Below are positions 551 through 15,791 of a DNA stretch of 64,000 nt, piece by piece. The notes under the pieces are model-generated. The model worked only from the letters and a program-made list of their open reading frames with translations. It had not been told where the DNA came from and made no database searches. Position 1 is the stretch's first letter. Every line of letters begins with the position of its first letter. Source of the DNA: Rhizobium sp. BK313 (lineage in GTDB: Bacteria; Pseudomonadota; Alphaproteobacteria; Rhizobiales; Rhizobiaceae). Position numbers and translations under genes: made by a program. Location: positions 310,001-374,000 of the forward strand of contig NZ_JACHZQ010000004.1 of assembly GCF_014193655.1 (NCBI RefSeq), given 5' to 3'.

Positions 551-1726
551 CTATTTGTAGGGATCGGCCGCGTCGCGCAAGCCGTCTCCTAAAAAGTTGA
601 ACGCCAGAATGACCAAAATCACCGGGACCATCGGGAAGAGAAGCCACGGGTAAAATGCAATGACACTGACGCTCCTTGCCTCGGTCAGCAGGATGCCCCA
701 GCTGGTGATCGGGGGGCGAAGACCGAGCCCCAGGAAGCTCAGCGCGGTTTCGCCGAGGATCATGCTGGGGATTGAAATCGTCGCCGTCGCGATCAGATGC
801 GACATGAATCCTGGTACAAGATGACGACCGATAATACGCGGCGAACTTGCACCCATCAATTGTGCAGCAAGTACATAGTCTTCTTCGCGCAAAGACAAGA
901 GCTTGGAACGAACCGCACGTGCCAGTCCGGTCCAATCGAGAATGCCGAGGATGATGGTGATGCCGAAATAAATGATGATGGGGCTCCAGGTCACCGGCAT
1001 GATCGCCGCGAGCGCCATCCACAGGGGCAGGCTCGGCAACGATTGCAGCACTTCGATGACCCGCTGGACGAGAAGGTCGAAGACACCGCCGTGATATCCT
1101 GCCAGCCCGCCGATGACTATCCCCAGCACGAAGCTGATGGCGATGCCGATCAACCCGATCGTCAGGGAAATGCGCGCACCATAGATAATGCGGGACAATA
1201 CGTCGCGCCCCAGGCGGTCGGTGCCGAGCAGGTACATCTGGCCACCGATAGCGGGGCAGACCAAATGGATATCCGCATCCACCAACCCCCAGAAGCGATA
1301 GGGATCGCCACGACAGAAGAAGCGGATCGGCTGCACGTCCTCCGTGTTGTTCGTATAGACCCGCCGCAGCGTGTCGAGATCGAGAGTCATCTTGCGGCCG
1401 TAGACGAAGGGGCCGACGAATTCGCCGTTGTTGAAGAAATGGACCCTCTGCGGCGGCGAATGGATGAAATCGACATTACGGGTGTGCAGGCCGTAGGGCG
1501 CCAGGAACTCCGCAATCAGGATCATGCCATAGAGCAGCAGCAGGAAGATGCCGGAAGCAAGAGCAAGCTTATGTCGCTTGAACTTCCACCACATCAGCCG
1601 CTTTTGCGAGGCCATGTAGTAACGTGCCTGGCCGGCGGACATGGCCTCGAACTGGTCCGGATCGAAGGCGGCGGTGGAAACGTAGTGCTCTAATGGGGCG
1701 CCAGGGCGCGGCAGGGGTGCGTTCAC
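551..1726 (-). CDS. Peptide/opine-type ABC transporter permease (DppC/OppC family)
   Basis: Inner-membrane permease of 391 residues, the second permease of a Dpp/Opp-type importer. It has an N-terminal cytoplasmic stretch, a first membrane helix near residues 48-65, a long periplasmic insertion of about 100 residues, then five more helices. The GTDRLGRDVLSRIIYGAR motif and the EAA-like loop (AAQLMGASSPRIIGRHLVPG) that docks on the ATPase are both present. The start is the GTG at 1724-1726, which overlaps the TGA of the preceding permease (GTGA) and has AGGAG about 8 bases upstream. Family DppC proteins are usually about 300 residues, and the extra length is mostly the loop before GTDRLGRD. 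Last gene of the ATPase, binding protein, permease, permease unit. The substrate is unknown. Confidence 0.88.
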   Translation of the reverse strand: MNAPLPRPGAPLEHYVSTAAFDPDQFEAMSAGQARYYMASQKRLMWWKFKRHKLALASGIFLLLLYGMILIAEFLAPYGLHTRNVDFIHSPPQRVHFFNNGEFVGPFVYGRKMTLDLDTLRRVYTNNTEDVQPIRFFCRGDPYRFWGLVDADIHLVCPAIGGQMYLLGTDRLGRDVLSRIIYGARISLTIGLIGIAISFVLGIVIGGLAGYHGGVFDLLVQRVIEVLQSLPSLPLWMALAAIMPVTWSPIIIYFGITIILGILDWTGLARAVRSKLLSLREEDYVLAAQLMGASSPRIIGRHLVPGFMSHLIATATISIPSMILGETALSFLGLGLRPPITSWGILLTEARSVSVIAFYPWLLFPMVPVILVILAFNFLGDGLRDAADPYK

Positions 1727-2721
1727 TTCGTGCTCCTGCCTTGCAAGCGGATACGTGGGTCGAGGAAGCCGAGGGCGATGTCGGAGATCAATACGCCGAT
1801 AACGTTCAGGAAAGCCAGAAACATCAGGAACGAGCCGGCGAGATACATATCCTGGCTCTGCAATGCCTTGATCAGCATCGGCCCGGTCGTTTCCAAGGAT
1901 AGCACGATGGCGGTGATCTCGGCACCGGAGATGATCGACGGCAGGATCGAGCCGATATCGGCAACGAAGAAATTCAGCGCCATGCGCAGCGGATATTTCA
2001 CCAGCGCCCTGAGCGGATGCAGTCCTTTTGCGCGGGCAGTGATGACATATTGCTTCTGCATCTCGTCGAGCAGGTTGGCGCGCAGGCGGCGGATCATGCC
2101 GGCAGTCCCCGCAGTGCCGACGATGATGACGGGAATCCACAGGTGCGAGAGGATCGAGCGTGCCTTGTCCCAGCTCATCGGTTGCGACAGGTATTTCAGA
2201 TCCATCAGATGGCCGATCGACACGCCGAACCAGATGTTGGCGAAATACATTAGGATCAGCGCCAGCATGAAGTTCGGAATGGCGATGCCGAGCAGGCCCA
2301 GGAAAGTCAGGCCGTAGTCCCCCCAGCTATATTGATGGGTGGCCGAATAGATGCCGATCGGGAAGGCAACTAGCCAGGTCAGCGCAATCGTCGTCATCGA
2401 CACCAGGATGGTCAGCCACAGACGGTCGCCCACCACCTCCGACACCGGCAGCTGATATTCGAAAGAATAGCCGAAATCGCCGTGCAACATGCCGGCGACC
2501 CAATACACGTATTGCACCGCCAGCGGCTTATCGAGACCGTATTCGTGGCGAAGATCCTCGATCTCCTGCATGTTGGCCGTCTCGCCCTGCGCCCGCAGTT
2601 CGGCGATCTGGCTTTCGAAGAAATCGCCCGGCGGCAGTTGGATGATGGTGAAGACCAACATCGAGATGACGAGCAGCGTCGGGATCATCACGGCGCTGCG
2701 CCAGAGAATATATTTAAGCAC
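1723..2721 (-). CDS. Peptide/opine-type ABC transporter permease (DppB/OppB family)
   Basis: First permease (332 residues) of the importer encoded from 6543 down to 551. It opens with the usual DppB start, [19 protein letters not shown], a membrane helix followed by the periplasmic segment PPGDFFESQIA and the HEYGLDKPLAVQYVYWV motif typical of family 5 partners. Five further helices follow, with an EAA-like loop (TARAKGLHPLRALVKYPLR) before the C-terminal helices. The ATG overlaps the end of the binding-protein gene by 8 bases and its TGA overlaps the next permease GTG, so translation is probably coupled. Its place and length are ordinary for the family. The substrate is not predictable from a permease. 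Confidence 0.9.
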   Translation of the reverse strand: MLKYILWRSAVMIPTLLVISMLVFTIIQLPPGDFFESQIAELRAQGETANMQEIEDLRHEYGLDKPLAVQYVYWVAGMLHGDFGYSFEYQLPVSEVVGDRLWLTILVSMTTIALTWLVAFPIGIYSATHQYSWGDYGLTFLGLLGIAIPNFMLALILMYFANIWFGVSIGHLMDLKYLSQPMSWDKARSILSHLWIPVIIVGTAGTAGMIRRLRANLLDEMQKQYVITARAKGLHPLRALVKYPLRMALNFFVADIGSILPSIISGAEITAIVLSLETTGPMLIKALQSQDMYLAGSFLMFLAFLNVIGVLISDIALGFLDPRIRLQGRSTK

Positions 2722-4630
2722 GCGGCGGCTCCTCCTTCAGCCAGAAGGTGTCGGGCATGAAAACCCCGAGATAGCAGGTGGGATCGAAGCCGTAGAGCGC
2801 CTTTTCGGGCACGTTCTGCAGCTGCGTTGCACGTACGATCGGCTGCAGCGTGCCGTTGATGAGCCCGATGGAGAAGACCTGGTCGGTATAGATCGCCAGC
2901 ATCTGATGCCATATCTCGGCCCGCTCGAAGGACGAGGCCGACCTGCCCCATTGCTGCTGCAGCTCGACGAGCTTCACCACCTCCGGCAAGTCCGGCGCCG
3001 TGCCCTGCGTGCCGCCGGAAAGATAGTACATGCCCCAGAGCGGCCATTGCATCTGGTCGTCCATGGTCGGCGCCAACTGGCCAGGGTTCATGTCCGCCGT
3101 CGCCACGCCGTTGTCGAGGCCATACCAGATCGACATCACGATACGTCCGCCCATGGCGCGGCTGCGCAGGATGTCTCGCTGCGAGCTGCGGGTAAACAGG
3201 GCGATGCCGACATTGCGCCAATGGTCGGTGACAAGCTCGAGCACGTCGGTGTCGAGCGTGCTTTCGCCGGCCGTCTCGACCGTGATCTCGGCGCGCCGGC
3301 CGTCCGGCAGCAGGCGGATACCGTCGCTGTCGCGCTTGTCAAGGCCGGCGGCATCGAGCAGGGCGTTGGCCTGATCGGGATCGTGGGCGATCCAGGCGTT
3401 GGCATATTCGGGCTTATAGAGCGGGCTCTCCGGCAGCATGGTGTCAGCGCTTTCGGTGCCGAGGCCATAGAAAACCGCCATGTTGATCTCGTGGCGCTTG
3501 ATCGCCAACGACAGAGCACGGCGCACCCGCACGTCGCGCAGCACCTGCCGCCAGACGGGATCGGCGCTGTTGAGATTCGGCATCAGCGCGACGCGCGAAC
3601 CGCGCGTCGCCTTCCAGAGATCGACCTTAACGGGGTAGCGCTTTTCCGCATCCTTCAGGAACGTATAGTCGTCGAAGTTGATGCCGGTCGCCTGCAGATC
3701 ACTGTCGCCGGTGCCGACCTTGTTCGGGATAATCGCCGACGAGCTGACGTTCAGGATGAAGCGGTCGACATATGGCAATTGCTTGCCGTTTTCATCGACG
3801 CGATGGAAGTAGGGATTGCGCTCGAACACGAATTGCTCTGCCGGCGGTGCGGTCGTGTTGTGCCAGGGGTCCAGTACCGGCAGCTCCGGATTCTCCTGGC
3901 GATAGACACGGGCCATCTTGATGTGCAGATCGGCCACTTTCTTGACGCGATATTGCTTCATCAGCGCCGAGAGGCGGACCTCGTCCTGATATTTCGGATG
4001 GAATTGCCTGAGATAATGGCTAGGGCCGACCACCACCAAGGCTTGCGGCGCGGCAAGATTTGGCAGGAAAAACGGATTGGGCTCGTCCCAGCTGTAGCGT
4101 ACGGTCAACTGATCGACAACTTCGAAGCGCGGCAGGCTGCCATGCGGGCGCAGCTCAAGTGCGCCGCCCCCCGGCGTCAATTTCTTGTTGAGAATGACGT
4201 CTTCCCACCAGTAGCGGAAGTCCTCAGATGTCAGCGGCTGTCCGTCCGACCACTTATGGCCATCGCGTAGCTTGAAGGTGAAGACGGTGTCGTTCTGCGC
4301 CTCGAAGGATTCCAGAATATCCGGCTGCAGCGTCAGCGTCTGATCGTAGCCCACCAGACGGGCATAACCATAGACGTTCATGAGGCGCAGGTCGCTCTGG
4401 CCGCCGATGAGCATGCGCAGCGACCCGCCGTAGCGGCCGGGTTCGCGGCCGAGTGCGGCGAGATTGATGATACGCGGCATCTTCGGCAGGCGCTGCGCCA
4501 GCGGTGGCATTTGGCCGGAGCGCAGCCAGTCGTGCAGGAAATCCGGTTCGTTGTCGGCATCTGCAGCGATCGCCGGCAGCGGCAGTACGGTGGAGGCGAG
4601 AAGGCCGAGAAAAGTGCGACGATCGATCAC
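2714..4630 (-). CDS. ABC transporter substrate-binding protein, family 5
   Basis: Periplasmic binding protein of 638 residues. The N-terminus ([20 protein letters not shown] ending AIAAD) is an export signal with an RR pair that may direct Tat export. The body has the family 5 features: [19 protein letters not shown], then [20 protein letters not shown], and the late [11 protein letters not shown]-type segment. It is about 100 residues longer than DppA, closer in size to YejA-type proteins, and the extra length is in the N-terminal lobe. Its start ATG overlaps the ATPase TGA (ATGA) and its end overlaps the permease start. Opines, peptides and oligosaccharides are all possible ligands for this family. 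Confidence 0.88.
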
Positions 4631-6543
4631 GAGCGCAACTCCTTCGCATCGGCGCCGCGGCGGGCGTGTACGAAATGGCCGCCACCGAGATCGGCATAGG
4701 CAAGCCCGGCCCCGTCACCCTCGGTGAACTGCGGCCCCCAACTCTGCTTGGCGGCCGGACCTTCGGCATTCAACGCGGAGAAATCAAGTGGCCGATCGAG
4801 ATCGGGGAAGGGGACTGCTGCGAGCAGCGAGCGGGTATAGGGATGGACGGGATCGCGCAGGATGATCTCACGCGGGGCGATTTCGACGATGCGGCCGCGA
4901 GCCATGACGGCGATGCGGTCCGCCATGTAGTCGACGACGGCGAGATTGTGCGAGATGAAGAGATAAGTAAGGCCAAGCTCCTTCTGCAAATCCTTAAGAA
5001 GATTGAGGATCTGCGCCTGAACGGAGACATCGAGCGCCGAGACCGGCTCATCGAGGATCAGCAGCTTCGGCCCAAGCGCCAGAGCACGGGCGATGCCGAT
5101 GCGCTGGCGCTGGCCGCCGGAAAAGCTGTGGGGATAGCGGCTCAGATAATGCTGGTCGAGTCCGATCGCCTGCATCAGCCCCTTGACCTTCTCCTTGCGC
5201 TCATCGCTGTCGCCGTGTCCGTGGATCTCAAGGGGTTCGCTCAGAATATTGCGGATCGTCATGCGCGGTGACAAGGACGAAACCGGATCCTGGAACACCA
5301 TCTGGATCTTCGTCCGGAGTGCCATGAGCTCGTCGCCCTTGACAGCCAGCACATCGATCTTGCCTTCGCCGTCATCGAATGTCACCGAGCCGCGGTCCGA
5401 GCTGACGGCACGCATCAGGATCTTGCTGACCGTCGTCTTTCCGCATCCACTTTCTCCGACGAGACCCAGACATTCGCCGCGGCGAATATCGAAGCTGACA
5501 TCGTCGACGGCGCTGAACTTGGTACCTGCCTGCCGCCCGAACAGCCCACTTCCTTTCGAACTGTAGGTTTTGGTGAGATTGCGCACCGTAAGCAGCACCG
5601 GCGGCGCAACGTTGCCGTTGCCGTTGCCATTACCATTGGTTTTGGCGGACTTCTTCTTGCCGGAGAAAGTGCCGAGATTGACGGGCACATCGCGCAACGA
5701 TTTCAGCCGTTCGCCGGGTTTCATGTCGAAATGCGGCACTGCTGACATCAATGCTCTGAGATAACGATGTTGCGGATCGCGGAAGATCGTATCGACCGGC
5801 CCCGCCTCCATGATCTCGCCGTGATAGATGACCACGACCTCATCGGCCATATTGGCGACGACACCGAGATCATGGGTGATCAGCAACATGGCCATGTTGA
5901 ACTTCTGCTGCAGGCCACGCAGCAGACCGAGGATCTGCGCCTGGATCGTGACGTCCAATGCCGTTGTCGGCTCGTCGGCGATCAGAAGCGCAGGATTGCA
6001 GATTAGCGCCATGGCGATCATCGCGCGTTGACGCATACCGCCCGACAATTCGAAAGGATACATATCGAAGGTACGATGCGGATTCTGAAAACCGACGAGG
6101 TTTAGCATCTCCTCGGTCTTCTCGCGCTGCTCGGCCCTGCTGGTGGCGGGATTGTGGATACGAAGCGCCTCGCTGATCTGGTTGCCGACCGTGTGCAGCG
6201 GCGACAGCGAGGTCATTGGCTCCTGAAAAATATTGGCCATGCGCGCACCGCGAAGCTGGCGTATCGCAATGCCGTCACGCGGCAGCTCGAGGATGTCCGT
6301 TGTCTCACCATCGAGCGGATCGGTAAAAAGAATACGGCCGGTCGCCTGCGCCGGCGTTGGCAAAATGCCCATGATCGACTGGCTGATGATCGATTTGCCG
6401 GAACCGGACTCGCCGACCAGCGCGGTTACCTTTCCAGGAAGCACCCGGAGATTGGCATTCTTAACCACACGCAACTTGTCCCCGTAGATCGAGAACGAGA
6501 CGTCGAGGTTCTCAATACGCAACAAATCAGTCCCTGACGCCAT
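4627..6543 (-). CDS. Dual-domain ABC transporter ATPase (DppD-DppF/YejF type)
   Basis: Cytoplasmic ATPase of 638 residues in which both nucleotide-binding domains of an Opp/Dpp importer are fused. Domain 1 has Walker A GESGSGKS (44-51), signature LSGGM (166-170) and Walker B LLIADE (186-191). Domain 2 starts near residue 317 and has Walker A GESGCGKT (363-370), LSGGQRQR and LLILDE. The domains are joined by a low-complexity Asn-Gly linker (about residues 303-311) encoded by a hexanucleotide repeat. First gene of the importer operon, which puts the ATPase ahead of the binding protein, the reverse of the usual order. About 160 non-coding bases precede it, where no convincing promoter was recognised. 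Confidence 0.92.
5611..5628. repeat. Hexanucleotide repeat (GTTGCC x3) in the ATPase linker
   Basis: Three perfect GTTGCC units followed by two degenerate units (ATTACC, ATTGG). On the coding minus strand they give alternating Asn-Gly residues joining the two ATPase domains. Because the unit is six bases, slippage would change linker length without breaking the frame. Confidence 0.8.
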
Positions 6544-6704: not shown

Positions 6705-8045
6705 TCACTGGATGAACTTCTCGACTGGCGGACGGTTCTCCAACTTCTTGGCATCCCGATGCAACAAGATGACCTGTTCTGCCTCCGAAAGAACGTCTGC
6801 GGCGACATCATGAAAGGCTTCCGTCGTCCCATTGCCTGCCGTGATGGCTTTTGGATGCACGACCGTGAAGCGCTGGCGCACGCCACGTAGTTTCTCTTCG
6901 CCGAGCGTTACCCACTCGCCGCCGGTGTAGCCGGCAAAAGCCTGGCTTGCGACCACCGCCGTCGAATATTTCTTGGTCAGCGACTGCAGCCGCTGCACCT
7001 CATTGACGGCAGCACCGAAAGCGGAAAAGGTCAAGCGGTCCCTAAGCCCGACATTACCAAGCATGACGTTGCCGACATGCAGGCCGATGCCATAACGAAC
7101 TTCGCTCAGGCCGCGTGCCTGACGATCCTTGTTGAGAGCGGCAACCCGGCTCTGCGCATGGAAAACAGCTGATAGCGCCGCTTCGCAAGCGACCTTGGAG
7201 GGGTCTTTGTGCCGGCCACAGGGATAGACGGCGAGGAAGCCGTCGCCCAGAAAACTCAAGATCTCGCCGCCGTTCCGGTTGAACGGCGCAGCGATGGCGT
7301 CGAAGAATTCGTTCAGCGTATCGATATAGGCTTGGCGTCCTTCCTTCTCGGCATAAAGGGTCGACTGCCGCATGTCGCCCATGACGAGAGCGGCGCGGAT
7401 CGTCTCGCCGTCGCCGCGGCGGATCTGGCCGTTCAGCACGCGTTTACCGGCATCGCCACCAAGATAGGTGGTGAGCATATTATTGGCGAGCTTGCCGAGG
7501 ACCGCCATCTTGGCGGCCATGGCGAGGTGATTCTGCATACGCATCAGCGCGCCGATCATTTCCTCACTGAAGCCGCTGATACTGTCGGTCGACCAGGAGC
7601 CCATCATTCCCTGGGCGGAGCCGGCGCCGAAGGTCTGCACGAAGGCGATATAGTCGGTGATCTTCTCCTTGCGCAGGTCCTCGAAAACCGGGAACTCCAG
7701 CGGCCCGTCAACATCGACGCGGCGGCGCAAGTGCAGGAGATTGTTGGAGAGCAGATAATAATAGGGGCTCTGCACGAAGCGCTCCGGCTTGTCGTTCACA
7801 TGCCGATAGCCTTCGATGGTCAGCCCGCCGGAACGCCGCCAGGTGAAGCCCAGCGCGTCGTAGAGCGGATGCAGCATCGAAAAGGTCAGATGCACGCGGG
7901 CGATCGGCAAGCCGGAGGCGGCTATACGTTCACAGAAACCGCGAACGATGCTCTCCAGATTTTCGCCTGTCAGTGCCGACTGTGTCAGCCATTCCGCGAC
8001 CTTGTCGAGAAAAATATCGGAAACACTCGAATGAACGGTCATCAT
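6705..8045 (-). CDS. Atypical class III nucleotidyl cyclase domain protein
   Basis: Soluble protein of 446 residues. Residues 1-200 resemble the N-terminal half found in many rhizobial cyclases (FCERIAASGLPIARVHLT, TWRRSGG), which is probably a sensor. Residues about 215-400 form a class III cyclase domain. The two metal-binding aspartates are present (D224 in VMGDMRQS, D268 in FLGDGF), as are the transition-state Asn348 and Arg352. The residues that normally choose adenine are not: the Lys position is Ser264 and the Asp position is Ala345 (FGAAVNEVQR). It may therefore use another nucleotide, or work poorly. No membrane segments. The ATG at 8045 has AAGGA about 12 bases upstream, and a second ATG follows directly. 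It stands alone downstream of a 351-base gap. Confidence 0.85.
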   Translation of the reverse strand: MMTVHSSVSDIFLDKVAEWLTQSALTGENLESIVRGFCERIAASGLPIARVHLTFSMLHPLYDALGFTWRRSGGLTIEGYRHVNDKPERFVQSPYYYLLSNNLLHLRRRVDVDGPLEFPVFEDLRKEKITDYIAFVQTFGAGSAQGMMGSWSTDSISGFSEEMIGALMRMQNHLAMAAKMAVLGKLANNMLTTYLGGDAGKRVLNGQIRRGDGETIRAALVMGDMRQSTLYAEKEGRQAYIDTLNEFFDAIAAPFNRNGGEILSFLGDGFLAVYPCGRHKDPSKVACEAALSAVFHAQSRVAALNKDRQARGLSEVRYGIGLHVGNVMLGNVGLRDRLTFSAFGAAVNEVQRLQSLTKKYSTAVVASQAFAGYTGGEWVTLGEEKLRGVRQRFTVVHPKAITAGNGTTEAFHDVAADVLSEAEQVILLHRDAKKLENRPPVEKFIQ

Positions 8046-8396: not shown

Positions 8397-9602
8397 TTAC
8401 AGTGTGCCGGGCGATGCCAGGGGCGCATCCAGCGCCGAGGAAACGGCAGCACGCAGCTTGTCGCGCAACGCCATTGCGGCCATCGCATAACCGCCGCTGG
8501 CACCGTCGATGAAATGCATGTGGTCGCGCATCAGGGGCGTCGGCACGAAGCAGGTCATTAGCGCGCTTTGCTGCCGATGCAGGCCGTAACGGCAAACGCC
8601 GGCAGCTTCGGCTTCGCGCAACCGCGCTTCAATGCGGGAAAGACGCGCGGCATCGACGTCGATGGTCATCTTCAGCCCATCATCGAATTTGCGGAAATCG
8701 GAATTCGCGGCAAGGTCGCGCCGGTAGATCTTGGCGTCGAAGGTTGCCGCGCGGATGCCGAACCTGTCGAGGATATAGACGAGAACGATCTGGGCAGCGA
8801 TCGAAAGCTTGCGCAGCCAGCGATTGCCCGCCGGCGCCGTGGCGCGCGCCTCGATTTCTGCTCCGTCGAAAGCAAGCACCGGCGTCGGACCTTCGACCGG
8901 GACTGGATGGCCACCACGGTTCTGCTCCATGGAAATGGCGATGACATCGGCAACGAGGCGTTGGAATTCCGGGCCATTTCCGGCAGCATCGGGAACGGCG
9001 ATGATCGAGACGATTTCACCATTGCGCGCCTCGATCGGGTTCCATCGGCAGGAAAGACCGGTCAGGTCCGGCCTTGTCTCCTGCGGCGCCGCTTCGACAG
9101 CAAAGCGTCCCGCCTTCATCTGCTTTTCCGCCCAGCTGCCGCCGCCACCGGAAAACATGGCGTAGGAAACGAAGTCGCTGGGGCTGAAACGGGCAACCCG
9201 CACGTCCAGCCCTTCGGCACGGACATCCGTCATCGGCACCAACGCGGTACGCAAGCTGAGCTGCAACTCCTCCATCACCCACGTCCGCACCGCCGCCAGC
9301 GCCTCTCGCACACGACCTTCACCAGAGGGAGGAATGGCTACCAGAGCACCATCACCGCCGAAGACGAAGGGATAGTCCCCCTTGTCCAGCGCGTTCAGCA
9401 CGGCTGAAATCACCCCCGCCCCGGCCATATTGACGGATTTGTAGTGGCCCGAAGCAATCGCCTTTGTCGAGCTGACGATGTCGGCCACCGCCAGAAGCCA
9501 GTCATCGGGAAGCGGCTGATAGTTATTGCTGTCGGTAACGCCTTCAAAACGGGTGAAAACCGGCAAAGTGCGGAAGAAATCGTCGTTCGATAGATCGGCC
9601 AT
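8397..9602 (-). CDS. DUF3095 family protein (cyclase-like)
   Basis: Protein of 401 residues matching the length and layout of the DUF3095 family, whose members are described as adenylate-cyclase-like but lack an assigned reaction. Near the N-terminus VADIVSSTKAI carries an Asp (D41) followed by the ST pair of a cyclase metal site, and FVFGGDGALVAIP carries a second Asp (D84) in a GDG turn. I do not see the later VN-x3-R catalytic segment of a full class III cyclase, so this looks like half a catalytic site plus a long family-specific C-terminal region. The start is taken as MADLSNDD because AAGGGGG lies about 6 bases upstream. An earlier in-frame ATG at 9629 has no such site. No membrane segments. 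Confidence 0.8.
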   Translation of the reverse strand: MADLSNDDFFRTLPVFTRFEGVTDSNNYQPLPDDWLLAVADIVSSTKAIASGHYKSVNMAGAGVISAVLNALDKGDYPFVFGGDGALVAIPPSGEGRVREALAAVRTWVMEELQLSLRTALVPMTDVRAEGLDVRVARFSPSDFVSYAMFSGGGGSWAEKQMKAGRFAVEAAPQETRPDLTGLSCRWNPIEARNGEIVSIIAVPDAAGNGPEFQRLVADVIAISMEQNRGGHPVPVEGPTPVLAFDGAEIEARATAPAGNRWLRKLSIAAQIVLVYILDRFGIRAATFDAKIYRRDLAANSDFRKFDDGLKMTIDVDAARLSRIEARLREAEAAGVCRYGLHRQQSALMTCFVPTPLMRDHMHFIDGASGGYAMAAMALRDKLRAAVSSALDAPLASPGTL

Positions 9603-9748
9603 GATATCCCCCTTATGAATGAGCGCCACAATCGCTTATCCCTACAGCAACTGCATCGAAAAACCAGCGGGCAGTCGACGCGATATGATCTGCCATGCTA
9701 CTCCGGCTGCGGGAGAGACATCACGACGCCAAGGACAAGACATATACG

Positions 9749-11136: not shown

Positions 11137-12861
11137 CTATGCAAAGCGGCCACTCTCCTCTTTCGGAAGGATATAGACACGCAGAGGCTCGCCGCGGCCG
11201 CGAACGGCAATCTCGCGGCTTTCAATGCCGGCGATGTCGATACCGGAAAGGCTCGCCACGGGCTCGGAGAAGACAAGCGCGCGGTTGAATTCCTTGGCGA
11301 CGCTTTCGAGGCGGCTCGCCACGTTGACTGTGTCGCCGATCGCCGTCACGTTCTTGACATTGCCATAACCCATCGAACCGACCACCGCCGAACCGGTGTG
11401 AACACCGACGACAATTTCGAGCGGGACCGACAGCTCATCGGCTAGCTCATCGCCGAGTTTGTCGATCTCCCTGATGATCTCGGCCGCCGCTTTGAGCGCC
11501 TGCCGGTTGGCCTCCTGCGGCGTGGTGCGCAGGCCGAACAGGGCCATGGCGCCGTCGCCGATGAACTTGTCCATCCGACCGCCATTGTCCTCGATGATGC
11601 GGCCGACGATCGCAAAATAACGGTTGAGCAGGAAGACGATATCGAAGGGCAGGCGCGACTCGGTCAGCGTCGTGAAATGGCGCAGATCGCAGAAAAAGAC
11701 GACGATCTCACGTTCACGGCCGGGGCTTGCCGTCTGGCTGTGGACGGGAATGGTCGATTCCGCCATCGGCGTCAGGAGCGGCACGACACTGATGTTTCCG
11801 GTCGGACGCAATTGGCAGGCGAGGCGGACGTCTGGCGTCGCGCCGATACGGTTCAGCGTCTTTTGCTCCAGAGCTTCGGGCGGCGGCAGATTGTCGACGC
11901 CTTCGATGATCTGGACGCGGCAGGTGGAACATTGGCCCTTGCCGCCGCAGACGGAGTAGTGCGGGATGCCGCCGAGACGGCTTGCCTCGAGTACGGTGAA
12001 ACCGCGAGGCGCATGCACGATTTCGCCGCTCGCATAGCGGATCGTGACCTGATGTTGCCGTTCGCGCAGCCTGCGATGGGTGCGGAAGGCGAAAAGGCCG
12101 ATGATGGACGCGCTGAAGGCACCGTAGAAACCGGCGCGATAGGGCCATATGGCGCTGACCATCTGGCTGCCGGGTATGGATCCGGTTTCGCCATAGCTGC
12201 GCATGTCGCTGTAGTAGCCGCCCCGATAGCCGCGCTCGTCATCCTGCGCTACCTCACGCGATACCGTTCTGCCCATGGCGGCGAAACCGAGCAGGGCGAG
12301 GACCGGCAGAACGATGGCGAAAGAGAACATGAGGGGCGCGATAGCCGTGTACCAGGCGCGATAGCGTAGCCAGAAATGGATGCCGATGCAGCCATGGATC
12401 CAGACGACTACCAGCACGACCGCCTGGCGCACGCCGTTTGCCGGCGACGTGATCCACAGACTGCGGACGATGGCGCGGTAGTTGTCGTGATAGTCGTAGA
12501 CATCGTGCAGAATGCGCGTGCCGATGATGTGGTCGATCAAAAGAACCGGAACCAGCAGGCCTGTGACGATCTGGAAGGCCTCGCCTGCGGGCATGACCAG
12601 GGTGCGGCGCTTGTAGAGCATGCGCAAGACGAGGAGGATATGGACGATTAGAGCGCCGTAGAGAAGGACGGTGCCGACCGGATTGCGCCAGACGGCCAGG
12701 AACCAGTGCTGCGCGTGATCGGCAGCATTCAGCGAGATCAATCCGAGGGAATGATTGGCCAGATGCATGATCACGAACACGAAGATCGTCAAGCCGGAGC
12801 CGAGGCGGAACTTTCGCACAAGACGATCGGAGATGATGGGTTTTCTCGCCTCTGTGGTCAT
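11137..12861 (-). CDS. cyaC: Membrane redox-linked adenylate cyclase, CyaC type
   Basis: Three-part protein of 574 residues. Residues 20-260 hold about six membrane helices of the SdhC/cytochrome-b type with candidate haem ligands His33, His37, His74, His111, His156 and His162. Residues about 270-365 form a plant-type ferredoxin domain with cysteines 305, 311, 314 and 349 (C-x5-C-x2-C...C). Residues about 385-565 form a class III cyclase with metal ligands D392 and D436, adenine-choosing K432 and D510, and catalytic N513 and R517, so it should make cAMP. This is the architecture of S. meliloti CyaC, described as a quinone-responsive di-haem cyclase. The ATG at 12861 is preferred over a GTG nine codons upstream. 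The promoter should lie in the 199 bases shared with the divergent glycosyltransferase gene. Confidence 0.9.
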   Translation of the reverse strand: MTTEARKPIISDRLVRKFRLGSGLTIFVFVIMHLANHSLGLISLNAADHAQHWFLAVWRNPVGTVLLYGALIVHILLVLRMLYKRRTLVMPAGEAFQIVTGLLVPVLLIDHIIGTRILHDVYDYHDNYRAIVRSLWITSPANGVRQAVVLVVVWIHGCIGIHFWLRYRAWYTAIAPLMFSFAIVLPVLALLGFAAMGRTVSREVAQDDERGYRGGYYSDMRSYGETGSIPGSQMVSAIWPYRAGFYGAFSASIIGLFAFRTHRRLRERQHQVTIRYASGEIVHAPRGFTVLEASRLGGIPHYSVCGGKGQCSTCRVQIIEGVDNLPPPEALEQKTLNRIGATPDVRLACQLRPTGNISVVPLLTPMAESTIPVHSQTASPGREREIVVFFCDLRHFTTLTESRLPFDIVFLLNRYFAIVGRIIEDNGGRMDKFIGDGAMALFGLRTTPQEANRQALKAAAEIIREIDKLGDELADELSVPLEIVVGVHTGSAVVGSMGYGNVKNVTAIGDTVNVASRLESVAKEFNRALVFSEPVASLSGIDIAGIESREIAVRGRGEPLRVYILPKEESGRFA

Positions 12862-13060
12862 CAAATCCAATTTAATTTGCCCGTTCACAAAGGAACGGAA
12901 AGCGGTTATCGCCTAATGGTCTAGCTGCAATACCGCATGCTGTCGAGGATGCGGCTTTTGGAGCGAGAGCCTTATTTTCAAGCAACCTGTCGGAATTCGG
13001 GCATTTCCCCTACATTTCCGGTCCAAACTATCACTTAATTGTCAACTATTCGCCCACGCT

Positions 13061-14164
13061 ATGAAGATCGCCTTCTATGCTCCGCTGAAATCGCCCAACA
13101 ATCCGGTGCCGTCGGGCGACCGGCTGATGGCGCGCCTGATCATCGCGGCCTTGGAGATGGCGGGACACACGGTCGAGCTCGCCTCGGAGCTGCGCAGTTT
13201 CACGCCGACGCCGGAGGTTGGACCTCGCGCCGAGATCGCTCGGAAAGCGGAACACGAGACCGAAAGATTGCAGAGGAAATGGCGAAACGAATCGCCGCCG
13301 GATCTCTGGTTCACCTACCATCCCTATTACAAGACGCCGGACCTCATTGGCCCGGTGCTCGCGGCAACACTTGGCATTCCCTACGTCACCGCCGAGGCAT
13401 CCTACGGCAGACGGCACGATGACAGCGGCTGGCGGGAAAATCAGCGTCTGGTCGCCGAAGCCGTACGGCAGGCTGCCGTCAATCTCTGTTTTACCGAGCG
13501 CGACCGGATCGGCCTAGTCGATGCCATCCCCGAGGGGCGCTACGAGCGCTTCCTGCCTTTCATCGATACGGCAGTTTTCGAACCTCTGGCCGAGGAGATC
13601 GCCCCGCATCGACTGATTACCGTTGCGATGATGCGGCGCGGCGACAAGTTCGACAGCTATGCGATGCTCGCGCAGGCGCTGGAGCTGATCCGCGATCGTG
13701 ACTGGACATTGACCATCATCGGTGACGGGCCGATGCGAGGGGAGGTGCGGATGCTGTTCTCCGCCTTCGATAATGAACGCATCACCTGGCTCGGAGAGCG
13801 GGCGGCGCCGGAGATCGTGGCCGAGCTGCGGGCAGGGGGCATCTATGTCTGGCCCGGCTGCGGTGAGGCCTATGGCCTTGCCTATCTCGAGGCACAGGCA
13901 GCCGGTCTTTCCGTCGTAGCGCAGGCAACGGCGGGCGTGCCGGAAGTAGTGACGGCTAATGTTACAGGATTTCTGACACCCGAAGGCGATCTGAAAGCCT
14001 ATGCCGATGCGATTGCATGCCTACTGGACGACGATCAGAAGCGTCGGGCAATGGGTAAGGCGGCCTACCGCTTCGTTCACGAAGAGCGGTCGTTAACCGC
14101 GGCCTCGAAACAACTCGAAACCATTCTGCGGAAGCATTTGGGAGATCCCTACTATGAGCGATAG
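13061..14164 (+). CDS. Glycosyltransferase family 4
   Basis: Protein of 367 residues with a GT-B fold. The N-terminal half begins MKIAFYAPLKSPNNPVPSGDR, with the loop that contacts the acceptor. The C-terminal half has the donor-binding features of GT4 enzymes: ITVAMMRRGDKFDSY, then LTIIGDGPMR, the GEAYGLAYLEAQAAGLSVVA segment (the E-x7-E motif) and GVPEVV. No membrane helix, so it acts at the cytoplasmic face. It overlaps the polysaccharide deacetylase gene by 11 bases, so the two are made together and probably work on the same surface glycan. Acceptor and sugar are unknown. Confidence 0.87.
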   Translation: MKIAFYAPLKSPNNPVPSGDRLMARLIIAALEMAGHTVELASELRSFTPTPEVGPRAEIARKAEHETERLQRKWRNESPPDLWFTYHPYYKTPDLIGPVLAATLGIPYVTAEASYGRRHDDSGWRENQRLVAEAVRQAAVNLCFTERDRIGLVDAIPEGRYERFLPFIDTAVFEPLAEEIAPHRLITVAMMRRGDKFDSYAMLAQALELIRDRDWTLTIIGDGPMRGEVRMLFSAFDNERITWLGERAAPEIVAELRAGGIYVWPGCGEAYGLAYLEAQAAGLSVVAQATAGVPEVVTANVTGFLTPEGDLKAYADAIACLLDDDQKRRAMGKAAYRFVHEERSLTAASKQLETILRKHLGDPYYER

Positions 14165-14910: not shown

Positions 14911-14961
14911 AAGCATGATCTAATCCCGAGCCGCTTCTTTGCGCTTTTGGGATCGGTGCTT
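14911..14961. repeat. Degenerate rhizobial intergenic palindromic repeat
   Basis: Begins AAGCATGATC and ends GATCGGTGCTT, with inner ATCCC/GGGAT arms and a CCGCTTC...GCGCTTTT middle. This resembles the short palindromic repeats scattered between genes in Rhizobiaceae (RIME/REP-like), whose core as I remember it is AAGCATGATC...CCGCTTC...GATCATGCTT. It fills the space between two convergent genes and its last base falls in the stop codon of the hydrolase gene, so it could also act as a two-way terminator. Confidence 0.6.
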
Positions 14962-15791
14962 CAGAGTTCGAGCAACTGACCGTCAAAGGCGGCAAAGGCG
15001 CCCGCGAAGCTTACCCGCGCATCCCTCTGCATGTCGTCCAGCTCCTTGTCGGTGCGTGCCGGTGCATGGTGGAAGAGTGCAAGACGCTTTGCCCCTGCTT
15101 TTTTTGCCAGTTTGACGCCTTCCTGCCAGGTGGAATGTCCGAAGCCCAGATGTTTCGGCATCTCCGGCTCGGTGTACGTCGTGTCGTAGATGGCAAGATC
15201 GGCATTCATCATCAGCGAAAGGGCTGCTTCATCCAGCCGACCGGCCATGTGCTCAGTATCGTAGACCAGGGCAATGACCCGGCCCGCCCATTCGATGCGG
15301 TAGCCGATACAGCCGCCTGGATGGTTCAGTTTGGCGGTGTGGATGACGATGCCCGGATGAGGTTTGAGCGTATCGCCGGCTGCAAAATCACGAAATCTCA
15401 TCGTCGCACGACAGATGTCAGGCTCCACCGGAAACCAAGGCGGCCGCATGAACTGGCCGATCAGTTGTCGTGTGGTCGTCTTGCCGGCAAGATGCCCTGT
15501 CCAAAGATCGACGCTGACCTTGGGATCGTAGATCGGATTGAAGAAAGGCAAACCGATGATGTGGTCGTAATGCGAGTGAGTGAAGAAGACATCGACGTCG
15601 CGAACACCTTCTTGCGCAAGCGACAATGCCGCTTCCCGCGCTCCGGTCCCGGCGTCAAAAATAATATGCCTGCCGTCATGTCGCAATTCGATGCAGGATG
15701 TATTCCCACCGTAACGCTCGAATTCCGGTCCCGATACGGGGATACTTCCCCGCACACCCCAGAATTTAAGCTCGAAACTATCGTTTTTCAT
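14961..15791 (-). CDS. Metallo-beta-lactamase-fold hydrolase
   Basis: Soluble protein of 276 residues. The start FELKFWGVRGSIPVSG and the phosphodiesterase-like layout place it with the PhnP/RNase Z-like branch of the metallo-beta-lactamase fold. The metal motif H-x-H-x-D-H is at residues 72-77 (THSHYDHIIG), further ligands are likely in LNHPGGCIGYRI and the Asp of LVYDTEHM, and a late LFHHAPAR supplies the last histidines. Enzymes of this branch cleave phosphodiesters, including cyclic nucleotides in some cases. Three cyclase-like genes lie 2-9 kb away, so cyclic-nucleotide breakdown is a reasonable but unproven idea. It starts on the minus strand, divergent from the cytochrome c gene. Confidence 0.83.
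   Translation of the reverse strand: MKNDSFELKFWGVRGSIPVSGPEFERYGGNTSCIELRHDGRHIIFDAGTGAREAALSLAQEGVRDVDVFFTHSHYDHIIGLPFFNPIYDPKVSVDLWTGHLAGKTTTRQLIGQFMRPPWFPVEPDICRATMRFRDFAAGDTLKPHPGIVIHTAKLNHPGGCIGYRIEWAGRVIALVYDTEHMAGRLDEAALSLMMNADLAIYDTTYTEPEMPKHLGFGHSTWQEGVKLAKKAGAKRLALFHHAPARTDKELDDMQRDARVSFAGAFAAFDGQLLEL

Follow-up and report, generated by a model that had tools for sequence, protein, structure and literature searches.

Only a small number of enzymes underlie the rules by which class III nucleotidyl cyclases select among ATP, GTP and pyrimidines. Class IIIb adenylyl cyclases have Ser or Thr at the N-7 site and retain the selecting Lys; among adenylyl cyclases, we take OaPAC (5x4t) and CyaC (1wc0) to belong to this class, and Rv0386 (Gln/Asn) and Rv1900c (Asn/Asp) are mycobacterial class III enzymes that naturally lack the canonical pair. 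The guanylyl cyclases described in two reports have Glu at the lysine position, and Cya2 – the guanylyl cyclase of Synechocystis – has Glu and Gly as its selecting pair (PMC4215837, PMC4886424). A Tyr of Cya2, at a site equivalent to A167 of Ma1120 (PMC4215837), has been proposed to touch the 2-amino group of guanine (PMC4886424), and the K101E variant of Ma1120 loses 62% of its adenylyl cyclase activity at pH 9, keeping the rest (PMC4215837). For the pyrimidine cyclases of Pycsar, PMC11224242 gives F100, R142 and Q144 as the CTP contacts of EaPycC and Y50, D94 and R97 as the UTP contacts of BcPycC.

The cyclase discussed here lies in a window of 64,000 nucleotides (the whole stretch of DNA analysed) from Rhizobium sp. 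BK313, whose 8.0-Mb genome contains 30 class III cyclase matches. The gene and the parts of its product are:

6705..8045, minus strand: class III nucleotidyl cyclase gene, an intact open reading frame of 446 residues with a PF00211 match and a fold match
about residues 10–160, minus strand: N-terminal alpha/beta domain (structure model)
residues 161–195, minus strand: long helix leading into the catalytic domain (structure model)
about residues 213–396, minus strand: catalytic domain (Pfam and structure model)
after the catalytic domain, minus strand: variable C-terminal tail

Judged by profile and alignment, this gene is a genuine member of the class III nucleotidyl cyclase family: PF00211 matches residues 220–369 (E 2.1e-8) with 34.4 bits against a cut-off of 21.9. 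The structure model has low confidence (pLDDT 59 on average, and below 50 at residues 263–268 and 326–347), so that no distances were taken from it; at this low confidence, the modelled catalytic domain matches CyaC (1wc5; Z 17.7, rmsd 4.6 over 177 residues) and Pseudomonas aeruginosa CyaB (Z 17.7). The N-terminal domain matched no Pfam family significantly – the best, DUF6345, reached E 0.14 in one of four relatives – and the order of its helices and strands, taken by itself, makes a GAF-like domain a candidate reading. The closest named orthologues are from Rhizobium.

A preliminary description of this DNA had the four catalytic residues D224, D268, N348 and R352 kept, which the alignments bear out, and the selecting Lys and Asp replaced by Ser264 and Ala345, of which the first half stands and the second is displaced by four residues. 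The positions concerned are:

7374..7376, minus strand: Asp224, metal ligand 1; 87/87 orthologues and 126/126 members of the wider family
7254..7256, minus strand: Ser264, the selecting-lysine position; 87/87 orthologues, aligned with OaPAC and Cya2
7242..7244, minus strand: Asp268, metal ligand 2; 87/87 orthologues
7029..7031, minus strand: Thr339, covarying partner of 264 (Asp where 264 is Lys, Glu where it is Arg)
7023..7025, minus strand: Ser341, the true second selecting position; 87/87 orthologues, aligned with OaPAC and Cya2
7011..7013, minus strand: Ala345, not a selecting position; Ala in 30 and Ser in 57 of 87 orthologues
7002..7004, minus strand: Asn348, transition-state residue; 87/87 orthologues
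6993..6995, minus strand: Gln351, aligned with the Tyr of Cya2 for which a guanine contact is proposed
6990..6992, minus strand: Arg352, transition-state residue; 87/87 orthologues

In HMMER alignments, Ser264 pairs with Lys in OaPAC and with Glu in Cya2; Ser341 pairs in the same alignments with Thr in OaPAC and with Gly in Cya2. Ser341 lies seven residues ahead of the catalytic Asn348, and the numbering of Ma1120 (D157, with the Asn site at 164) has the same spacing of seven (PMC4215837). Because the alignments and this spacing put the second selecting residue at Ser341, the choice of Ala345 was a register error, and Ala345 is ruled out as the aspartate position; in terms of the common GDtVN motif, residue 345 falls on its second D-type position, and it is His in a Lys/Asp cyclase of the host genome (L001). 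Read from these alignments, the pocket change is S264/T339/S341, not S264/A345. Where a canonical adenylyl cyclase has Lys (264) and Asp (341), this protein thus has Ser twice, and where guanylyl cyclases have Glu at the lysine position (PMC4215837, PMC4886424), it has Ser264. All 87 distinct orthologues have the Ser that class IIIb admits at 341, and all 87 have Ser264 in place of the class IIIb Lys.

Every one of the 37 genus genomes searched (its own and 36 others) has the gene, near full length in 36 of them (residues 1–4 to 443–446) and as residues 1–347 in the fragmented assembly G003. The orthologue set was drawn from 117 matched loci, 111 of them at 70% identity or more, which gave 87 distinct sequences; the selecting positions 264 and 341 are as invariant in them as the catalytic residues, position 345 varies, and residue 351 is Gln in 63 and Glu in 24. 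Eighteen further relatives at 43–63% identity, some of the same taxonomic family and others from elsewhere in the order, all have S264; of the 17 whose sequence reaches position 341, 16 have S341, the exception (L187) having Thr, and the remaining sequence (L191) is partial. The catalytic domain has a dN/dS of 0.03–0.10 in five orthologue comparisons, three of which are rough (dS above 1). As the invariant residues and this low ratio indicate, the cyclase is not decaying. The earlier proposal of changed base selection rather than decay, with non-random residues in relatives, is therefore supported for S264 and S341 and is strengthened by the covariation of 264 with 339 described below; it fails for Ala345, which was in the wrong register.

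The pocket was compared across a family set of 126 sequences (effective number 97 at 70% identity), picked by similarity to the cyclase (E 1e-60 or better) together with five paralogues from its own genome and the orthologous loci; assembled in this way, the set does not sample class III at random, and some listed matches were left out. Three duplicates (L031, L230 and L263) and the partial L191 were dropped, and L189 gave no usable row. Nine residues occur at position 264 in this set: K, S, D, N, R, L, E, T and A. The common 264–341 pairs are K-T (62), S-S (25), D-S (8), and S-T, N-S, R-T and R-S (5 each), followed by L-T (3), E-S and N-T (2 each) and, once each, D-G, T-S, A-T and E-G. Thr341 thus accompanies Lys264 in 62/62 rows, and in the other 64 rows position 264 is S, D, N, R, L or a further residue. 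The pairing of 264 with 339 is K-D in 61/62, R-E in 9/10, S-T in 22/30 and N-S in 5/7. The catalytic D, D, N and R are intact in 123/126 sequences, namely 62/62 Lys rows and 61/64 others.

By corrected mutual information over the 126 sequences, 264–339 is the top pair (15.3 sd), and 339–341 (9.8 sd) and 264–341 (8.0 sd) are also within the top ten. Position 264 covaries at 6–7 sd with 228, 240, 172, 347, 334 and 55 as well, a list that includes positions of the N-terminal domain, and part of its signal may be explained by kinship. A quick maximum-likelihood tree was built with columns 264, 339 and 341 left out; the fewest changes on it are 17 at 264, 21 at 339 and 8 at 341. Branches on which two positions change together were counted on a single parsimony reconstruction, in which ties were resolved arbitrarily, for 62,835 pairs of 355 positions. 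The pair 264–339 shares 10 such branches against 1.4 expected, rank 3 of all pairs, with two unrelated pairs (380–394 and 12–239) above it; 264–341 shares 2 against 0.5, which is not significant, and 339–341 shares 1 against 0.7. On this quick tree, Lys264 was gained or lost only four times and 339 moved along in a mean of 3.9 of 4 independent pairs, a number too small for a sign test to reach 0.05; for basic versus acidic residues, one independent pair lies on well-supported branches. The link between 264 and 339 therefore appears to hold beyond kinship, and the charge-matched K-D and R-E pairs suggest that the two residues are in contact; the link between 264 and 341 is weakened by the tree-based count and may be inherited. 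Position 339 is not a universal partner of Lys264, since beyond this family three of the host's own paralogues (L008, L010 and L006) have Lys with other residues there.

Residue 351 is Gln or Glu in 15/30 Ser264 rows versus 0/62 Lys rows, counts that are not independent, as the Ser264 rows include eight of the cyclase and its closest orthologues. Among other variants, Asp264 occurs in nine members (L144, L190, L192, L198, L207, L209, L213, L214 and L245); eight of them have Tyr222, which would give them two of the three BcPycC UTP contacts, with Gly at the third site, but Tyr222 is also found in 16/62 Lys264 rows, which makes the combination a lead only. Two members, L207 (D-K-G at 264/339/341) and L299 (E-N-G), come near the E-K-G of Cya2 and are candidate guanylyl cyclases.

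The genes on either side of the cyclase are:

551..2140, minus strand: ABC permease; OppC-type models whose matches begin at residue 160 or so at the earliest, below their curated cut-offs
1723..2721, minus strand: ABC permease; Opp-type permease models, all below curated cut-offs
2714..4630, minus strand: ABC substrate-binding protein, SBP family 5 (Pfam)
4627..6543, minus strand: double ATPase of an oligopeptide-type ABC transporter (ABC_tran), next downstream
8397..9629, minus strand: DUF3095 protein, next upstream (PF11294, E 1.1e-131)

The true start of the permease at 551..2140 is probably inside that reading frame. Each of the 80 named orthologous loci has an ABC ATPase homologue on the same strand, with its start 141–186 bases downstream of the cyclase, and a DUF3095 gene stands upstream in 75 of them; one of the other five (L114) spans merely 380 bases upstream. 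The model of the DUF3095 protein (pLDDT 81) matches tandem adenylyl cyclase cores: it resembles the C1–C2 core of AC8, AC9 and sAC, with Z 12.5 and rmsd 4.5 over 261 residues for adenylyl cyclase 8 (AC8), and the ATP-binding protein 6yii, and scores lower against the Cas10-type Csm1 (Z 9.0). A tandem class III cyclase-like fold is thus predicted for it, in which Asp41 and Asp84 – invariant in 56 aligned rows – would by their position be putative metal ligands. A profile comparison of the DUF3095 and cyclase alignments, both shallow, gave a probability of 0.1; a sequence search of the PDB returned no matches for DUF3095, and a search of the open-licence literature found no mention of it. The idea that DUF3095 is an obligate partner is weakened: among 66 wider loci, with flanks of at most about 4 kb, only 8 have it upstream, and in the 11 other genomes of the class with both a listed cyclase relative and DUF3095 (at most five candidates scored in each, and some of the assemblies drafts), none of the listed places is adjacent.

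A further class III cyclase about 3 kb upstream (11137–12888, minus strand), with a 2Fe-2S ferredoxin domain and membrane helices seen by eye, joins DUF3095 and the cyclase, so that three cyclase-fold genes are clustered. Beyond it, a glycosyltransferase (13061–14164, plus strand) and an MBL-fold hydrolase (14961–15791, minus strand) have homologues of 56–57% identity near the orthologue on pSymB of Sinorhizobium meliloti, and the conserved neighbourhood is therefore wider than the ABC operon.

That orthologue (WQP24298.1) is 63% identical to the cyclase and, like the R. etli CIAT 652 protein named 'cyaAa' (78% identity) and the Mesorhizobium orthologue, has S-T-S at 264/339/341. ABC genes follow the orthologue in CIAT 652, Mesorhizobium WSM1497 and S. 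meliloti ml47, in the last with a polysaccharide lyase in between. Nucleotide-sugar dehydrogenase and glycosyltransferase or deacetylase genes lie near the orthologues in the same three strains; the dehydrogenase in the R. etli and S. meliloti clusters, and the lyase in S. meliloti, set these apart from the BK313 locus. On plasmid pA of CIAT 652, two annotated cyclases, cyaa and cyaCa, are found near the orthologue, and in WSM1497 (L325, 1–1176) a PF00027 cyclic-nucleotide-binding protein and an MBL-fold hydrolase – possibly a receptor and a phosphodiesterase – are found 5–6 kb from it. The pSymB orthologue is intact in strain 2011 (L326) and split over two frames in strain 1021 (L327, 6459–7813), either through a record error or as a strain difference; the split may have hidden it from studies of that strain. 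The tag SMb20776, considered as the S. meliloti orthologue, is that of CyaK and was discarded. Queries of the open-licence literature, which did not include the orthologue's locus tag, found no report on the cyclase. The receptor Clr of S. meliloti answers to both cAMP and cGMP, and PMC10127613 reports that no dominant guanylyl cyclase activity has been found among the cyclases of this species; PMC13001267 reports a strain of it from which all 28 annotated class III cyclases are missing.

The reading that we prefer, at a probability of about 50%, is that of a competent IIIb-like homodimer with a rebuilt, uncharged pocket, a changed or relaxed purine choice, a signal-relaying N-terminus and a link to the ABC transporter. 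Two-metal chemistry would proceed through D224 and D268, with N348 and R352 as the transition-state pair, and the base would be read by S264, T339 and S341 together with Gln or Glu351, in place of the K-D-T of adenylyl relatives. The pocket seems to have been rebuilt as a unit, and Gln/Glu351 alongside S-T-S favours an altered purine pocket, most likely one that selects differently or less strictly among purines (GTP, or ATP together with GTP). Signal relay is the probable task of the N-terminal domain, and the fixed site before the oligopeptide-type ABC operon suggests that either this signal or the enzyme's output has to do with uptake by the transporter.

The substrate may be GTP, both purines, or ATP held by other contacts. 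Gln/Glu351 and Ser341 speak for GTP, and the lack of Glu264 and of a reported dominant guanylyl cyclase in S. meliloti against it; a GTP preference becomes less likely if the pSymB orthologue was among the cyclases tested in PMC10127613. A broader and rather improbable proposal is that the S-T-S clade is a separate rhizobial cyclase with a base preference of its own, possibly the dedicated source of cGMP so far missing for Clr, within an alphaproteobacterial family re-engineered repeatedly through 264 and 339.

The different substrate of the preliminary description is one reading of the pocket, and Ser341 itself fits an ordinary class IIIb adenylyl cyclase, in which Ser or Thr at the N-7 site is normal; OaPAC has Thr. 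This is the basis of the strongest rival, to which we give appreciable though clearly lesser weight: ATP would be held by the backbone and Ser341, and Lys264 would be dispensable in this family. Seven of the 30 class III domains of the host genome have no Lys at the 264 site, three of them, the cyclase included, having Ser, and a dominant guanylyl cyclase is not known in S. meliloti (PMC10127613). Since Ma1120 K101E still makes cAMP at pH 9, pocket residues alone are no proof of an altered choice. What tells against an ordinary adenylyl cyclase is that Ser264 is invariant and coordinated with 339, and that 351 differs, where drift would give mixed residues.

It is unlikely that the protein is a pseudo-cyclase that binds nucleotide, or acts as a partner or regulator, without turnover. 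The neighbouring DUF3095 protein, with its second class III-like fold, makes partner roles conceivable, and Asn348 is lost in three distant relatives without Lys (Ile in L203 and L205, His in L213); against this stand the metal, Asn and Arg residues in all 87 orthologues and in 61 of the 64 non-Lys relatives, and the strong purifying selection.

A pyrimidine cyclase making cCMP or cUMP, as Pycsar PycC does, is very improbable, for residues 222, 264, 266 and 267 are Met, Ser, Leu and Gly here instead of the published CTP and UTP contacts (PMC11224242; the EaPycC contacts were mapped by spacing to the metal Asp and those of BcPycC by way of EaPycC), which disfavours the pyrimidine substrate suggested earlier. 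PADLOC models of PycC do hit the catalytic domain, PDLC00734 with the best E (6.9e-15), but that model scores two K/T paralogues and the neighbouring cyclase above it, so that the match looks generic, and with these three controls scoring higher, Pycsar membership was rejected; on PycC models two and three, paralogue L030 scores below the cyclase. No PycTM or PycTIR gene is among the immediate neighbours, which are the ABC transporter genes and DUF3095.

The family offers many natural pocket variants, since position 264 may be K, S, D, N, R, L, E or another residue while the catalytic residues stay intact and 339 covaries with it, and specificity rules become directly testable in them. The orthologue on pSymB makes the question testable in S. 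meliloti, where Clr answers to both nucleotides and no dominant cGMP maker is known (PMC10127613).

Among known systems, paralogues in the host genome such as L014, L019 and L030 resemble the cyclase over nearly their whole length, N-terminus included, at about 33% identity, and differ in having Lys264, Asp339 and Thr341. OaPAC and CyaC have the fold and the catalytic set in common with it; OaPAC has K-D-T where the cyclase has the uncharged S-T-S, Ser at the 341 site being a conservative alternative to Thr. Rv0386 and Rv1900c have other residues and another architecture, and Rv1900c (1ybt) is a weak sequence match (E 0.11). Pycsar PycC has the class III fold in common (7r65; Z 16.5, rmsd 3.3 over 170 residues, on the weak model), without its pyrimidine contacts being present in the cyclase. 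The best sequence match in the PDB is Cya2 (2w01), which is like the cyclase in its catalytic residues, in a non-lysine residue at 264 and in a polar residue just before the catalytic Arg (Tyr in Cya2, Gln in the cyclase), and differs from it in reading E-K-G at 264/339/341 where the cyclase reads S-T-S.
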